From positions 1 through 64,000 of the forward strand of contig SMMW01000580.1 of the NCBI GenBank assembly GCA_004794655.1: a stretch of DNA of 64,000 nt. The letters are read 5' to 3'. Positions 2,480-53,806 of this stretch are shown here, in pieces (the first letter of the stretch is position 1; every line of letters starts with the position of its first letter). The stretch is from Marisa cornuarietis (lineage: Eukaryota; Mollusca; Gastropoda; Architaenioglossa; Ampullariidae). Both the position numbers and the translations under genes were made by a program. The notes below the pieces were generated by a model, which worked only from the letters and a program-made list of their open reading frames with translations, had not been told where the DNA came from and searched no databases.

Positions 2480-2631
2480 ATGGTGGTTAAAGCAAGAAGA
2501 GATAACTCAGCGTTACTTCAGAAACTGGGAAAATATCTTACGACCGACAAGAAGACCCGTGTGTGGACCCTGTTTGTTTTGTTCCTCCTCGTGCTGTGTC
2601 TACAGCTGATCTCTTTCTCTGCCATGTACAG
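2480..2631 (+). CDS. GT92 coding exon 1: cytosolic tail and signal anchor
   Basis: The ATG at 2480 (context GCTATGG) opens a frame giving MVVKARRDNSALLQKLGKYL, then DKKTR, then the hydrophobic run VWTLFVLFLLVLCLQLISF, a textbook type II anchor with positive charges on the N-terminal side. The exon ends CCATGTACAG|GTATGT in phase 2. The last 32 bases of the exon (from CTACAG at 2600) are the first copy of the 41-bp unit that fills the following intron. The frame is short and easily overlooked because a longer overlapping frame starts at 2424; hydropathy and phase match to exon 2 decide for this one. Confidence 0.85.
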
Positions 2632-5600
2632 GTATGTCTACTGAAGGTGATCTCTTTCTCTGCCATGTACAGGTATGTCTACTAAAGGTGATCTCTTTCT
2701 CTGCCATGTACAGGTATGTCTACTACAGCTGATCTCTTTCTCTGCCATGTACAGGTATGTACAGGTATGTCTACTGAAGGTGATCTCTTTCTCTGCCATG
2801 TACAGGTATGTCTACTAAAGGTGATCTCTTTCTCTGCCATGTACAGGTATGTCTACTACAGCTGATCTCTTTCTCTGCCATGTACAGGTATGTCTACTAA
2901 AGATGATCTCTTTCTCTGCCATGTACAGGTATGTTTACTACAGCTGATCTCTTTCTCTGCCATGTACAGGTATGTCTACTAAAGGTGATCTCTTTCTCTG
3001 CCATGTACAGGTATGTCTACTACAGCTGATCTCTTTCTCTGCCATGTACAGGTATGTACAGGTATGTCTACTGAAGGTGATCTCTTTCTCTGCCATGTAC
3101 AGGTATGTCTACTAAAGGTGATCTCTTTCTCTGCCATGTACAGGTATGTCTACTACAGCTGATCTCTTTCTCTGCCATGTACAGGTATGTCTACTAAAGA
3201 TGATCTCTTTCTCTGCCATGTACAGGTATGTCTACTACAGCTGATCTCTTTCTCTGCCATGTACAGGTATGTCTACTACAGCTGATCTCTTTCTCTGCCA
3301 TGTACAGGTATGTCTACTACAGCTGATCTCTTTCTCTGCCATGTACAGGTATGTCTACTACAGCTGATCTCTTTCTCTGCCATGTACAGGTATACAGGTA
3401 TGTCTACTACAGCTGATCTCTTTCTCTGCCATGTACAGGTATGTCTACTACAGCTGATCTCTTTCTCTGCCATGTACAGGTATGTCTACTACAGCTGATC
3501 TCTTTCTCTGCCATGTACAGGTATGTCTACTACAGCTGATCTCTTTCTCTGCCATGTACAGGTATGTACAGGTATGTCTACTACAGCTGATCTCTTTCTC
3601 TGCCATGTACAGGTATGTCTACTACAGCTGATCTCTTTCTCTGCCATGTACAGGTATGTCTACTACAGCTGATCTCTTTCTCTGCCATGTACAGGTATGT
3701 CTACTAAAGATGATCTCTTTCTCTGCCATGTACAGGTATGTCTACTACAGCTGATCTCTTTCTCTGCCATGTACAGGTATGTCTACTACAGCTGATCTCT
3801 TTCTCTGCCATGTACAGGTATGTACAGGTATGTCTACTACAGCTGATCTCTTTCTCTGCCATGTACAGGTATGTCTACTACAGCTGATCTCTTTCTCTGC
3901 CAATTACAGGTATGTCTACTACAGCTGATCTCTTTCTCTGCCATGTACAGGTATGTCTACTACAGCTGATCTCTTTCTCTGCCATGTACAGGTATGTACA
4001 GGTATGTCTACTACAGCTGATCTCTTTCTCTGCCATGTACAGGTATGTCTACTACAGCTGATCTCTTTCTCTGCCATGTACAGGTATGTCTACTACAGCT
4101 GATCTCTTTCTTTGCCATGTACAGGTATGTCTACTAAAGATGATCTCTTTCTCTGCCATGTACAGGTATGTTTACTAAAGATGATCTCTTTCTCTGCCAT
4201 GTACAGGTATGTACAGGTATGTCTACTACAGCTGATCTCTTTCTCTGCCATGTACAGGTATGTACAGGTATGTTTACTACAGCTGATCTCTTTCTCTGCC
4301 ATGTACAGGTATGTACAGGTATGTCTACTACAGCTGATCTCTTTCTCTGCCAATTACAGGTATGTCTACTACAGCTGATCTCTTTCTCTGCCATGTACAG
4401 GTATGTCTACTACAGCTGATCTCTTTCTCTGCCATGTACAGGTATGTCTACTACAGCTGATCTCTTTCTCTGCCATGTACAGGTATGTCTACTACAGCTG
4501 ATCTCTTTCTTTGCCATGTACAGGTATGTACAGGTATGTCTACTACAGCTGATCTCTTTCTTTGCCATGTACAGGTATGTCTACTAAAGATGATCTCTTT
4601 CTCTGCCATGTACAGGTATGTCTACTACAGCTGATCTCTTTCTCTGCCATGTACAGGTATGTCTACTACAGCTGATCTCTTTCTTTGCCATGTACAGGTA
4701 TGTCTACTACAGCTGATCTCTTTCTCTGCCATGTACAGGTATGTCTACTACAGCTGATCTCTTTCTCTGCCATGTACAGGTATGTTTACTACAGCTGATC
4801 TCTTTCTCTGCCATGTACAGGTATGTCTACTACAGCTGATCTCTTTCTCTGCCATGTACAGGTATGTCTACTACAGCTGATCTCTTTCTCTGCCATGTAC
4901 AGGTATGTCTACTACAGCTGATCTCTTTCTCTGCCATGTACAGGTATGTCTACTACAGCTGATCTCTTTCTTTGCCATGTACAGGTATGTCTACTAAAGA
5001 TTATCTCTTTCTCTGCCATGTACAGGTATGTTTACTACAGCTGATCTCTTTCTCTGCCATGTACAGGTATGTACAGGTATCTCTACTACAGCTGATCTCT
5101 TTCTCTGCCATGTACAGGTATGTCTACTACAGCTGATCTCTTTCTCTGCCATGTACAGGTATGTCTACTACAGCTGATCTCTTTCTCTGCCATGTACAGG
5201 TATGTCTACTACAGCTGATCTCTTTCTCTGCCATGTACAGGTATGTCTACTACAGCTGATCTCTTTCTCTGCCATGTACAGGTATGTCTACTACAGCTGA
5301 TCTCTTTCTCTGCCATGTACAGGTATGTCTACTACAGCTGATCTCTTTCTCTGCCATGTACAGGTATGTACAGGTATGTTTACTACAGCTGATCTCTTTC
5401 TCTGCCATGTACAGGTATGTTTACTACAGCTGATCTCTTTCTCTGCCATGTACAGGTATGTACAGGTATGTCTACTACAGCTGATCTCTTTCTCTGCCAT
5501 GTACAGGTATGTCTACTACAGCTGATCTCTTTCTCTGCCATGTACAGGTATGTCTACTAAAGGTGATCTCTTTCTCTGCCATGTACAGGTATGTCTACTA

Positions 5601-6590
5601 CAGCTGATCTCTTTCTCTGCCATGTACAGGTATGTCTACTAAAGATGATCTCTTTCTCTGCCATGTACAGGTATGTTTACTAAAGATGATCTCTTTCTCT
5701 GCCATGTACAGGTATGTACAGGTATGTCTACTACAGCTGATCTCTTTCTCTGCCATGTACAGGTATGTACAGGTATGTTTACTACAGCTGATCTCTTTCT
5801 CTGCCATGTACAGGTATGTCTACTAAAGATGATCACTTTCTCTGCCATGTACAGGTATGTCTACTAAAGATGATCTCTTTCTCTGCCATGTACAGGTATG
5901 TCTACTAAAGGTGATTTCTTTCTCTGCCATGTACAGGTATGTCTACTGAAGGTGATCTTTTTCTCTGCCATGTACAGGTATGTCTACTAAAGGTGATCTC
6001 TTTCTCTGCCATGTACAGGTATGTCTACTGAAGGTGATCTCTTTCTCTGCCATGTACAGGTATGTCTACTACAGTGCAGCAGGCAAAGTTTCACCTTCCT
6101 CCAGGTGTGAGGCGCTTGGCGCCAGCAGAAGCTCAGTGGAGGATATTCTCCGCTGGAGAAGAACAGACATTCCCGAGGGACAGCCGCAGTGGCAGCGGGT
6201 GGACAATGCCGGTGGTGCCTTTGTCTACTCGGCGCACTTCCACGACCTACAGGCAGACGCCATGGTGAGGGTGGTGGGCATCGCTCGACATCCCCTCCCC
6301 TACTCTCGAGTCTGGTGTCGCTACTTCACTCCGGGCCACCCTGTCACACTCCTGTACACCGTGCGTGGCAGGATGTACCACTTTCGATCCCCAAACAGGA
6401 GACGGTAATCCACTATTTACACAGTCCTCGCACAGGTCGTCGTTAAGAGTGACTGTTGTAGGATATGCGGAGTGGGAGGTGTCGGAAACTTCTGTGTAAT
6501 GCTCTGCCCCTCTCACCCTCTGCCTGCCTGTCTCTCTGTGTGTACAAAGAACGCACAGTACAGAGAACACAAGTGTTATGCAACAACAAC

Positions 6591-6631
<41 letters not shown>

Positions 6632-8816
6632 ACACAAAAACCATAGCCACAGGGATGATCTGAACTTTGTATTTTGTACATTTGTTGTTTGTTCTTATGG
6701 TTTGAATGTATTTCCACTTTGAGAGGATAGCTTGCCTGCCTCCAGGAGAACGCACTTGTCGATATGATGTCGTTATCCTCGACATGGGCATCATTGCGGG
6801 AGTCATCACCGTCGTCACCCTCTTCCTCCTCATCCTTCTCGTCATCACCACTGATCTCTGACTGCAGGTACCTCGGGGTGTTTGTCGACTGCCCTCTCCA
6901 CGCGGCGCACCAGGCTGTGCCATACGCGGTGTCTGTGGACAAGGACCATGTGACTGTCAGAACCAACTTCATGATCATCCATTACAGCGACCTCTACAAC
7001 CACAATTCCAGCAGCTGCCACGACACCGCTGGTGGTGCCCGGGTGGACAGGCGTTGTCTCCACGCTCAGCATGGGGTTGGGCGAGGGGCGTACGAGAAAA
7101 GTGAGGGTCACGTGACCAGGTGGAACGTCACCCGCTGTGTGCCGGCGCTTCAAGATGGATTCAACAACTACACCCTCTTGCTGGAGATGGTGGCCGTCAG
7201 CACAACCCTGGGCGTCGACCACTTTGTCTTCTATGTCGAATCCATCGGCCCTGAGGTCAACAAAGCATTGATGGTCTGTCGTGTTGTTCTATTGCTTGGT
7301 ATTTCGTCAGTGCGTTCTTTCTCTCTCTTTCTACGTGCGCAAGTGTGTGTGTGTGTGTGTGTGCGTGCGTGCGTGTGCGTGTGCACGTGCGTGTGCACGT
7401 GCGTGTGCACGTGCGTGTGCACGTGCACGTGAGACAATGAGAGAACGAAAAAAAATCGTTGCATTTTTTGCATTGCGAGCTTAGGTGGAAGTGACAAGTG
7501 TTTAGAGTTGATGAATTTATCAAACAATAACATTTTGTGGCTTTGTCCGTGTATATGTTGTGCGTGTAATTTTGTAAATTGTTGGAGTTTTTGATTCGTT
7601 GTTTTGATACCTTTGGTAGTACTTCTGTGTGTATTTAACATGAGTCTACATCATATTACTGCATCCATCTCTCTCTCTCTCTCTCTGGGAAACTCGACCT
7701 CGTTGTGGTGTCTGTGACGGTTCGCAGGCTCTAAAGCGCTTGGGCTTGGCAGAAGTTCTTCCGTGGAACCTGCATCTGGAGGATGAGGACCTGTTCTACA
7801 AAGGCCAGTTCCCGGCTATCCAGGATTGTCTGTACCGACACCTGCACTCCTCCCGCTATCTGCTCTTCGGAGACGTGGACGAGGTGTTCGTACCCAGGTC
7901 ATACCCTTCGCTTCTCTCTCTCCTCGACCATTACTTCACACAGGTACCGAGCGTGTACACAATTATTCCTCACATATACATAATACTCTCCATTTCTTCA
8001 CACAGGTACAGTGTGTACACAATTACTCCTCAGATATATACAATACTCTCCATTACCTCGCACAGGTATAGAGTGTGTACACAATTACTCCTCACATATA
8101 CACAATACTCTCTATTACCTCACACAGGTACCGAGCGTGTACACAATTACTCCTCACATATATACACACTACTCTCCATTACCTCACACAGGTATAGAGC
8201 GTGTACACAATTACTCCTCACATATATACACACTACTCTCCATTACCTCACACAGGTATAGAGTGTGTACACAATTACTCCTCACATATACACAATACTC
8301 TCTATTACCTCACACAGGAACCGAGCGTGTACACAATTACTCCTCACATATATACACACTACTCTCCATTACCTCACACAGGTATAGAGCGTGTACACAA
8401 TTACTCCTCACATATATACACACTACTCTCCATTACCTCACACAGGTATAGAGTGTGTACACAATTACTCTTCACATATATACACACTACTCTCCATTAC
8501 CTCACACAGGTATAGAGCGTGTACACAATTACTCCTCACATACACACTACTCTCTATTACCTCACACAGGTATAGAGTGTGTACACAATTACTCCTCACA
8601 TATACACAATACTCTCCATTACCTCACACAGGTATAGAGTGTGTACACAATTACTCCTCACATATACACAATACTCTCTATTACCTCACACAGGTATAGA
8701 GTGTGTACACAATTACTCTTCACATATACACAATACTCTCTATTACCTCACACAGGTACCGAGCGTGTACACAACCCTCAGGTACATAATCCTCTCTCTA
8801 GCTAGGTCCAGGTGAT

Positions 8817-8906: not shown

Positions 8907-9429
8907 TACACACACACTTTTCTCTCTTTTACGATCTCACTTTAGTTTCAGAGGAGAAAAATCGGCCAGCTTGACACTATTTCAATTTCATTTCCAGAAT
9001 TCCGCCTGCGGTGCTTTTCTGTTCCTAAACACATTTTTTTACCTGGATTTTCAAACGGAAAGTCCACCCGCGTCAGACCCTGCATCAGTCCAATACGTCA
9101 CGCGTCACAGGGTGGATCTCCTTCTCCACACCCGCCGTCAGCGCAGCATCTTCCCACCCAGGGTGCGCTCCAAGCCTGCTGTGCGCCCGAGCAGGGTGGA
9201 GACTGGAAGTGTGCACTTCATCCAAAAATTCCGCCGGAATTACACGCTGTGCGTGGTGAATAAACGTGATGGACTTCTTCACCATTACAGGTACCATGGA
9301 GGGTTCCCCACTACCCGAAACACCGCCGTAGACCCATTTTTGTGGAAGCACGTTGAGAAAATTGTACAAGAGTTGCAAACATTGATCTTGACTTTCAACC
9401 AGACGATTGTAGAAACGTGTGTGTGCTGA
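2480..9429 (+). CDS. Glycosyltransferase family 92 (DUF23) protein, type II membrane, five exons
   Basis: The coding join 2480-2631, 6060-6404, 6868-7273, 7728-7943, 8998-9429 gives 516 residues plus TGA; junction phases are 2, 2, 0, 0. Residues 1-27 are a basic cytosolic tail, about 28-48 a signal anchor, and the rest a lumenal stem and catalytic domain. Family-like motifs are VDHFVFYVESIGPEVNKAL (exon 3), GLAEVLPW and LLFGDVDEVFVP with DVD at residues 350-352 as the likely metal/nucleotide-sugar motif (exon 4), and FLNTFFYLDF, VRSKPAVRPSRVET and LLHHYR (exon 5). GT92 members include the C. elegans galactosyltransferase GALT-1; the substrate here cannot be deduced. Several N-glycosylation sequons (NSS, NVT, NYT, NQT) fit a Golgi lumenal domain. 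Length is normal for the family. Exon 3 uses a weak donor (ATG|GTCTGT). Family assignment is firm; exact 5' UTR and specificity are unknown. Confidence 0.9.
2600..6074 (+). repeat. 41-bp tandem array forming the whole first coding intron of the GT92 gene
   Basis: About 80 head-to-tail units (81 fits the arithmetic, not individually counted) of 41 bp, with some 51-bp variants carrying an extra GTATGTACAG. Each unit holds a pyrimidine tract, CCATGTACAG, then GTATGT, so a 3' splice site abuts a 5' splice site. Unit variants differ mainly at CTACAGCTG / CTAAAGGTG / CTAAAGATG / CTGAAGGTG. The array begins inside exon 1 and ends inside exon 2 at a second CTACAG, 41 bp being exactly the spacing of the two CTACAG sequences in the spliced exon. 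As 41 is not a multiple of three, the array must be removed whole to keep frame. ORFs called across it are repeat artefacts. Confidence 0.97.
6060..6404 (+). CDS. GT92 coding exon 2: stem and start of lumenal domain
   Basis: The exon follows the last array unit (CCATGTACAG|GTATGTC) and continues the exon 1 frame as R-YVYYSAAGKVSPSS. It encodes residues 52-165, including GGAFVYSAHFHD and MYHFRSPNRR, and ends CG|GTAATC in phase 2, four bases before an in-frame TAA. The stretch with VVGIARHP and WCRYF resembles the N-terminal part of GT92 proteins, where the sequence is usually less conserved. The joined codon 166 is CG|G (Arg). Confidence 0.85.
6405..6867 (+). other. GT92 intron 2 with CA repeat
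   Basis: This 463-bp intron runs GTAATC to CTGACTGCAG. It contains a (CA)n microsatellite at about 6594-6630 and a run of TCATC/TCCTC triplets near 6800-6850 that produce long antisense and sense ORFs of low complexity. No gene is supported in it. Confidence 0.8.
6868..7273 (+). CDS. GT92 coding exon 3: N-terminal part of catalytic domain
   Basis: The exon begins after CTGACTGCAG and reads YLGVFVDCPLHAAHQAVPYA to VDHFVFYVESIGPEVNKALM (residues 167-301). Cysteines at DCPL, SSCHD, RRCLHA and TRCVP may form disulfides in the lumen. Sequons NSS, NVT and NYT are present. The C-terminal block, hydrophobic core then GPEVNK, is the conserved GT92 entry to the Rossmann-like fold. The exon end at ATG|GTCTGT (phase 0) was chosen because it joins exon 4 to give VNKALMALKRLGLAEVLPW, matching family spacing; the donor itself is weak, and a cryptic alternative such as GTATTT at about 7300 is possible. 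Confidence 0.85.
7343..7432. repeat. GT / GTGCAC simple repeat in intron 3
   Basis: A (GT)n run passes into tandem GTGCACGTGCGT units and ends with overlapping GTGCACGTG. It contains CACGTG E-box cores and is an alternating purine-pyrimidine tract that could adopt left-handed DNA. It lies in the 454-bp intron 7274-7727, whose remainder shows nothing further apart from a (CT)n run just before the acceptor. Confidence 0.95.
7728..7943 (+). CDS. GT92 coding exon 4: DxD motif exon
   Basis: After GGTTCGCAG the exon reads ALKRLGLAEVLPWNLHLEDE to SLLSLLDHYFTQ (residues 302-373). GLAEVLPW and FGDVDEVFVP are the most diagnostic GT92 stretches; DVD at 350-352 is the presumed divalent-metal/nucleotide-sugar motif and is intact. 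The exon ends CACACAG|GTACCG in phase 0. Its last 15 bases are the first copy of the repeat that fills the next 0.85 kb. If this intron were retained, the frame would stay open to a stop at 8259-8261. Confidence 0.9.
7929..8775 (+). repeat. ~63-bp tandem array across the exon 4 donor site, 14 units
   Basis: Fourteen units, each containing TTACCTCACACAG followed directly by GTATAGAG or GTACCGAG and then GTGTACACAATTACTCCTCA. The first unit consists of the last 15 bases of exon 4 plus the first 48 bases of its intron. Every unit therefore offers an AG|GT pair, except one with CAGGAACC near 8317. Units are 62-66 bp. Long ORFs across the array are artefacts of the near-triplet period. Confidence 0.95.
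8831..8924. repeat. (CA)n / (CGCA)n microsatellite in intron 4
   Basis: A long alternating CA tract with an internal CGCACGCA section lies between the end of the 63-bp array and the pyrimidine-rich region before exon 5. It generates a spurious N-terminal extension of the exon 5 reading frame. Confidence 0.97.
8998..9429 (+). CDS. GT92 coding exon 5: C-terminal catalytic domain and stop
   Basis: The acceptor ATTTCATTTCCAG is chosen because it alone restores phase 0 and gives DHYFTQ-NSACGAFLFLNTFFYLDF, where the FLF-N-FFYLDF block matches the family. An earlier TTTAGTTTCAG at 8951 would put exon 5 in the wrong frame. Residues 374-516 include RQRSIFPPRVRSKPAVRP, VETGSVHFIQKF and LLHHYR, which are typical of GT92 ends, and sequons NYT and NQT. 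The reading frame closes at TGA 9427-9429. The GTACC after LLHHYR could be read as a donor, but the frame continues with helix-like VDPFLWKHVEKIVQELQ as in relatives, so it is taken as exon. Confidence 0.88.
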   Translation, partial: NSACGAFLFLNTFFYLDFQTESPPASDPASVQYVTRHRVDLLLHTRRQRSIFPPRVRSKPAVRPSRVETGSVHFIQKFRRNYTLCVVNKRDGLLHHYRYHGGFPTTRNTAVDPFLWKHVEKIVQELQTLILTFNQTIVETCVC

Positions 9430-51654: not shown

Positions 51655-51872
51655 ACTACTTGCGATTAACCTGGTACCTATTTCTGTGTTCACCTGCCTA
51701 GTTAATCAGGTACCTATTTCTGTGTTTACCTGCCTACTTAATCAGGTACCTATTTCTGTGTTTACCTGCCTGATTAATCAGGTACATAGTTCTGCTGCGG
51801 AGCAAGAGACTTTTCCTGGCTTCGAATCAGCGACACGCTCCACAACTGTCTAACCACCAGTCTACGGAGTCT
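51655..51872 (-). mobile_element. tRNA-derived SINE-like element with internal 36-bp repeats
   Basis: On the minus strand a tRNA-like head has TGGTGGTTAGAC (A box, 51849-51860) and GATTCGAAGCC (B box, 51819-51829). It is followed by TACCTGATTAATCAGG and then about three 36-bp units with ACAGAAATAGGTACCTGATT. The 58735-58842 element has a similar head and the same AATAGGTACCTGA word, so they belong to one family. Ends and target-site duplication are not clear. Confidence 0.65.
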
Positions 51873-53345: not shown

Positions 53346-53806
53346 TGGATGGATTAACCAACAACTAATGTCAGGTGTTACATCCCGCACCTCACCGACT
53401 GGATTAACCAATAATGTCAGGTGTTACATCCCGCACCTCACTGACTGGATTAACCAATAATATCAGGTGTTACATCAACTACCTCACTGACTGGATTAAC
53501 CAGTGATGTCAGGTGTTACATCCCGCACCTCACTGACTGGATTAACCAATAATGTCAGGTGTTACATCCCGCACCTCACTGACTGGATTAACCAATAATA
53601 TCAGGTGTTACATCAACTACCTCACTGACTGGATTAACCAGTGATGTCAGGTGTTACATCCCGCACCTCACTGACTGGATTAGCCAATAATATCAGGTGT
53701 TACATCAACTACCTCACTGACTGGATTAACCAGTGATGTTAGGTGTTACATCCCGCACCTCATTGACTGGATTAACCAATAATGTCAGGTGCTACATCCT
53801 CCCAGT
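53346..53806. repeat. 46-bp minisatellite, 10 units
   Basis: Units contain GACTGGATTAACCAATAATG and TCAGGTGTTACATCCCGCAC. GGATTAACC recurs every 46 bp from 53402 to 53770. Two unit types, CCCGCACCTCAC and CAACTACCTCAC, follow a partly regular order, so blocks of 92-138 bp have been duplicated as a whole. Confidence 0.96.

Follow-up and report, generated by a model that had tools for sequence, protein, structure and literature searches.

The window, that is, the whole 64,000-nt stretch of Marisa cornuarietis DNA that was analysed, carries a GT92 glycosyltransferase gene on the + strand. The predicted exons of this gene, its first intron and the repeats that accompany them are as follows (positions are those of the window, and a slash within a motif marks a splice junction).

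2480..2631, + strand: GT92 exon 1, with the start codon, an N-terminal hydrophobic segment (VWTLFVLFLLVLCLQLISFSAMY) and a phase-2 donor after ACAG (translation)
2600..6074, + strand: 41-bp tandem array running from exon 1 into exon 2, 81 copies plus mini-units (TRF, unit splitting)
2600..2605, + strand: left microhomology CTACAG
2632..6059, + strand: predicted intron 1, 3428 nt, GT...AG units throughout
6060..6404, + strand: GT92 exon 2 if the acceptor at 6059 is used; its frame is open and continues that of exon 1
6060..6104, + strand: 45-nt stretch, coding or a former intron end, ending in an in-frame acceptor, TTTCACCTTCCTCCAG/GTG
6069..6074, + strand: right microhomology CTACAG, which doubles as a weak alternative acceptor at 6074
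6868 to 7255 or 7273, + strand: GT92 exon 3 (translation, Pfam GT92)
7728..7943, + strand: GT92 exon 4 (translation, Pfam GT92)
7928..8774, + strand: sister array of 60-64 bp units that copies the 16 nt at the 3' end of exon 4, together with the donor, into intron 4 (TRF, unit splitting)
8998..9429, + strand: GT92 exon 5, which ends at the stop codon (translation)

The gene product matched Pfam PF01697 (GT92) over residues 253-474 with 110.7 bits (cut-off 23, E 1.2e-31), and a PDB search returned a galactan synthase over residues 283-367 (E 5e-6), the second match being insignificant. The Pfam match excludes exons 1 and 2, and the basis for both of them is the frame, the splice sites and the N-terminal hydrophobic segment. 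Exon 1 is a single open frame starting at ATG. Its 19-residue hydropathy peaked at 2.58 over residues 31-49 when residues 16-78 were scanned, and residues 41-50, the second part of the hydrophobic segment, are encoded by the repeat unit. It was proposed in the preliminary description of this DNA that joining 2631 to 6060 restores the frame, and translation bore this out: the in silico join kept the GT92 frame and ran through exon 2 without a stop. No other copy of GT92 in the window was found among the best 40 tblastn matches, all of which lay in the GT92 gene or its array. A separate tandem array with 57-bp units (114-bp higher-order units) occupies 1137-1483, about 1 kb upstream of the GT92 start codon, and is perhaps located within the 5' leader or promoter of the gene.

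TRF placed the 41-bp array at 2600-6074, with a period of 41 and 81.1 copies. The units were also located by an anchor motif, TTTCT[CT]TGCCA, which was chosen independently of the splice junction and was found 81 times, once in exon 1 and 80 times in the intron. Both methods thus confirmed the figure of about 80 copies given in the preliminary description, although the copy number is assembly-dependent. The 80 anchor-to-anchor spacings were mostly 41 bp (65 cases), with 14 of 51 bp and one of 49 bp; the longer spacings were due to extra cassettes at the junctions, GTATGTACAG (10 nt, n=14) or GTATACAG (8 nt, n=1). The length of intron 1 (3428 nt) is accordingly 80x41 + 14x10 + 8 and not a multiple of 41. 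The claim that the intron consists wholly of 41-bp units therefore had to be narrowed, since the 80 such units are accompanied by 14 GTATGTACAG and one GTATACAG mini-units. When junctions were located by their own motif, ACAG/GTA, it was found that all 96 CAGGTA sequences of the array, the first donor and the last acceptor included, read ACAG/GTA. Because 81 junctions follow an anchor and 15 belong to the mini-units, which makes 96, there is no unit without a junction. AGGT occurs 108 times in the array, and the remaining 12 occurrences fit the AAGGTGAT variant within the unit. A 17-mer of the unit was found 81 times with at most 3 mismatches (0.29 expected in shuffled windows), and a 25-nt piece of the unit had no exact match in viral contigs.

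The array is highly uniform but not at its ends. Forty-two of the 80 intronic units were identical to the unit built from both exon edges, 12 of the 41 columns varied among the intronic units, and 13 distinct sequences were present among the 41-nt units. The mean number of differences from the exon-derived unit was 1.5 in the first 10 units and 2.3 in the last 10, against 0.6 in the middle 60, and none of 20000 permutations was as extreme as this excess of divergence at the ends. Such a pattern would fit an array in which the core was homogenised and the ends are older.

The capacity of the junctions to act in splicing was evaluated with weight matrices made of rounded metazoan frequencies, so that the scores rank sites and are uncalibrated. 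With these matrices, the exon-1 junction scored 9.5 as a donor and 11.2 as an acceptor, and the sum of the two exceeded that of all 247 other + strand AGGT sequences scored outside both arrays. Over the 96 junctions, these matrices gave donor scores of 4.6-9.5 and acceptor scores of 11.2 (74 junctions), 11.5 (6), 9.3 (1) and 2.3 (15), the last number being equal to that of the mini-units. The acceptor at 6059 scored 11.2 on the same matrices, compared with 7.0 for intron 2, 4.3 for intron 3 and 9.4 for intron 4. The 41-nt unit is thus a GT...AG cassette that holds a donor and a pyrimidine tract; CTGAT occupies columns 16-20 of the exon-derived unit and of 57 of the 80 intronic units, and no consensus yTnAy branch motif was found in the 60 nt that precede 6059. 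Every unit boundary has AGGT in a donor as well as an acceptor context, so that intron 1 would, as judged from its sequence, belong to the dual-specific arrays. Invariance of AG/GT taken alone was not significant given 12 variable columns of 41 (P 0.23), and that of the 9-nt core had P 0.029; therefore, no selection is claimed. Two further acceptors lie close to the right edge. Use of the one at 6074 is unlikely, as it scored 1.8 and the previous AG is only 15 nt away. The other, at 6089-6105 (CCTTCCTCCAG/GTG), is in frame, and its use would remove 15 residues.

It is quite probable that 2632-6059 is removed as an intron via the outer sites. Since the units all run from GT to AG, excision of any whole number of them rebuilds the same AG/GT, and one-step and recursive splicing should therefore end at one mRNA. 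Given such convergent excision, the copy number would be free to drift with little effect on the protein. Incomplete excision is a different matter. Codon 55 of the unspliced frame is a stop, and retention of a single unit, in any of the 95 possible ways, neither kept the frame nor left exon 2 open; an expressed protein repeat encoded by the array is therefore unlikely. Longer retentions were open through exon 2 in 14 of 94 cases for two units, 1 of 93 for three, 3 of 92 for four, 0 of 91 for five and 1 of 90 for six, and these open cases are read here as incidental.

A toy splicing model was run with random choice of donor and acceptor (400 runs per minimum intron length) and with a bias towards short introns (150 runs per minimum). 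With random choice and a minimum of 30-41 nt, 94-96% of the 400 runs left no unit. At minima of 50-80 nt, 52-58% of the runs were clean and 42-48% ended with leftover repeat, most frequently one 41-nt unit; at 100 nt, the corresponding values were 40% and 60%. With the short-intron bias, 91% of the runs were clean for a minimum of 41 nt, and 49-51% for minima of 60 and 80 nt. Considering that no single leftover unit leaves an open frame, the model predicts either that the outermost sites are used efficiently or that dead-end transcripts should be visible.

A second array of related design was present in the same gene. Most of intron 4 is taken up by the sister array, beyond which come unique intron sequence and then an ordinary acceptor. 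Thirteen of the 14 junctions of the array read AG/GT and one read AG/GA. As a dual site, the exon-4 donor stands out less than the exon-1 donor: it was matched or beaten by 7 of the 247 other AGGT sequences on both scores and by 19 of 247 on the sum. With arrays in introns 1 and 4, two of the four predicted coding introns carry such repeats, and the sister array suggests a process that is more than a single accident. That the two are independent, self-converging splice-site minisatellites at different stages, the one in intron 4 spanning a donor and the one in intron 1 being exon-born and making up the whole intron, is a tentative proposal.

Over its full length, the window holds many tandem repeats, with 62 TRF rows, overlapping ones included, that range from dinucleotides to a 190-bp period. 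The units of the minisatellites at 51665-51794 and 53366-53799 contain CAGGT, and no adjoining exon was seen. None of the 127 open frames of at least 62 aa that start after 9500 and were retained after a low-complexity filter had a Pfam match, a search in which shorter exons would be missed.

The edges of the 41-bp array were compared with the exons. Identity between exons and unit extends for 32 nt on the upstream side of the junction and for 15 nt on the downstream side, and CTACAG is found at either edge of the array. As had been described before, the two CTACAG sequences are 41 bp apart in the spliced sequence. With an equal-base model, breakpoint homology of at least 6 bp is expected for about 0.0013 of random breakpoints. 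These edges support a duplication between the two CTACAG sequences, whether the right-hand 15 nt were then exonic or intronic.

Taken as a whole, intron 1 appears to be a minisatellite of dual-specific splice sites whose units are copies of the exon sequence on both sides of the junction, a reading to which a probability of about 0.55 is assigned. It is plausible, with odds slightly on its side, that the intron was born at its present site by tandem duplication. The ancestral sequence CTACAG-CTGATCTCTTTCTCTGCCATGTACAG/GTATGTCTA-CTACAG would have been continuous coding sequence, of which 41 bp would have been copied when the two CTACAG sequences mispaired by slippage or served in microhomology-mediated repair. 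Because the duplicated segment contains the branch-point-like CTGAT, a pyrimidine tract and ACAG/GTATGT, the second copy would have been spliceable and the peptide unchanged. The array would then have expanded to about 80 copies; here the dynamics are conjectural and the sequence is observed. Both ends of intron 1 sit in repeats, and the repeat part on the left is coding sequence for the hydrophobic segment. Of the preliminary account of a birth by duplication, the anatomy was recovered, namely exon-derived units, AG/GT junctions, a 6-bp microhomology, an unchanged peptide and a strong donor, but not the birth itself.

Since the array of intron 4 copies a donor, array growth inside an intron that was already there has to be taken seriously for intron 1 as well, and intron 4, in which a donor-copying array precedes unique sequence and an ordinary acceptor, has the very anatomy that this alternative assumes. 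According to this explanation, which is possible but is regarded with some doubt, an intron was already present after ATGTACAG, with its acceptor at 6104/6105 (or since lost), and the duplication took the end of exon 1 together with the first 15 nt of that intron. The array then grew and the old intron lost most of its sequence, an additional loss that duplication at the present site does not require. The exon-1 donor and the acceptor at 6104 are in frame (45 nt), so that 6060-6104 may once have been intron, and with the uncalibrated matrices this acceptor scored 7.7, in the range covered by introns 2-4 (4.3-9.4), although it is outscored by the acceptor at 6059 with 11.2. Also against its use, the previous AG is only 16 nt away from 6104, and the sole yTnAy in the last 60 nt is located at -12, whereas the usual distance from branch point to acceptor is 18-40 nt. 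The codon score of the 45 nt was as low as that of 5.5% of coding windows, while 39% of non-coding windows scored as high, which makes the stretch more non-coding-like than coding-like by a test biased in that direction, because it was trained on the exons that supplied the coding windows. Moreover, the last 10 codons of exon 1, which were likewise outside the training set, scored just 0.03. The weak codon test thus leans towards an older intron, and a stretch after 6059 that scores low as coding and ends in a good in-frame acceptor speaks against birth at the present site.

Two other explanations are considered improbable. One supposes that a former 3' splice site was duplicated, so that the branch point, the pyrimidine tract and the AG of the unit derive from the terminal part of an older intron, of which the last stretch of exon 1 would be an exonised copy. 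That stretch does resemble an intron end, its acceptor score of 11.2 with the uncalibrated matrices being higher than those of all three of introns 2-4, and there is a precedent in the potato RdRp (PMC4974935). However, the end of exon 1 encodes the second part of the hydrophobic segment, and this exon is one open frame. The other, to which slightly less weight still is given, is an artefact of the assembly or the gene model, in which the length of the array was inflated or exons 1 and 2 are not joined. The variety of unit sequences and the greater divergence of the ends argue against the former, and the continuity of frame and hydrophobic segment across the join argues against the latter.

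Intron gain of this kind is an established route, in line with the preliminary description. In the review PMC3443670, 188 events of intron gain by tandem genomic duplication of AGGT-containing exon segments are reported, together with an in vivo demonstration. Drosophila introns ascribed to tandem duplication also lie at strong dual proto-splice sites (PMC2891723). In ATP2A1/ATP2A2, an AGGT-bearing duplicated exon segment likewise supplies both splice sites with the peptide unchanged (PMC4974935, PMC3443670); intron 1 differs from this case in its approximately 80 copies and in that its intronless ancestor is hypothetical. In the potato RdRp, the duplication spans an intron-exon boundary, and the source sequences of new introns are said to be seldom identified (PMC4974935). 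The gained introns of fission-yeast SPOG_01682 and SOCG_00815 consist, like intron 1, of tandem copies of a nearby exon segment (PMC3629103), but their units are 24 nt long and present in four and two copies (PMC4974935), compared with 41 nt and about 80 copies here. Those introns are backed by species comparison and ESTs, one EST mismatching the annotated intron (PMC3629103); their proto-splice site is given as AGGC in PMC3629103 and as AGGT in PMC4974935.

Among the cases compared, human UBC comes closest in mechanism with its array of dual-specific splice sites. In UBC and VCX3A, as in intron 1, the boundary AGGT serves as donor and acceptor (PMC10809524). UBC has 9 ubiquitin units, compared with 96 junctions here, and the human copies are kept as coding units, whereas the unit of intron 1 is 41 nt long, non-triplet and predicted to be removed. 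Dual site usage was observed in the human genes and is predicted from sequence in intron 1. The same paper lists 77 human introns of repeat-multiple length with an expansion model, and its authors propose that introns are created de novo via expansion of dual-specific repeats (PMC10809524). Intron 4 is reminiscent of human internal tandem repeats at exon-intron boundaries, which are partly spliced out and can form novel introns (PMC2812944); those, however, are recent paralogues with transcript evidence. A limited literature search found no array with as many copies of a unit that is both non-triplet and wholly intronic. Tandem-duplication gain and dual-specific arrays are therefore already published, and the copy number, the non-triplet unit and the sister array make the present case an extreme variant of them.

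If relatives are without intron 1, this locus would be an unusually legible birth record, in which the microhomology, the source exon, the diverged ends and the homogenised core can all still be read. Intron 1 would also make a natural test case for recursive splicing, as its 96 similar sites should converge on a single mRNA, and its copy number should vary among individuals with little effect. If the two arrays are indeed independent minisatellites of this type, introns in this lineage would repeatedly be created and lengthened by minisatellite growth across AG/GT, at little cost since the junction is rebuilt unchanged whichever units are excised.
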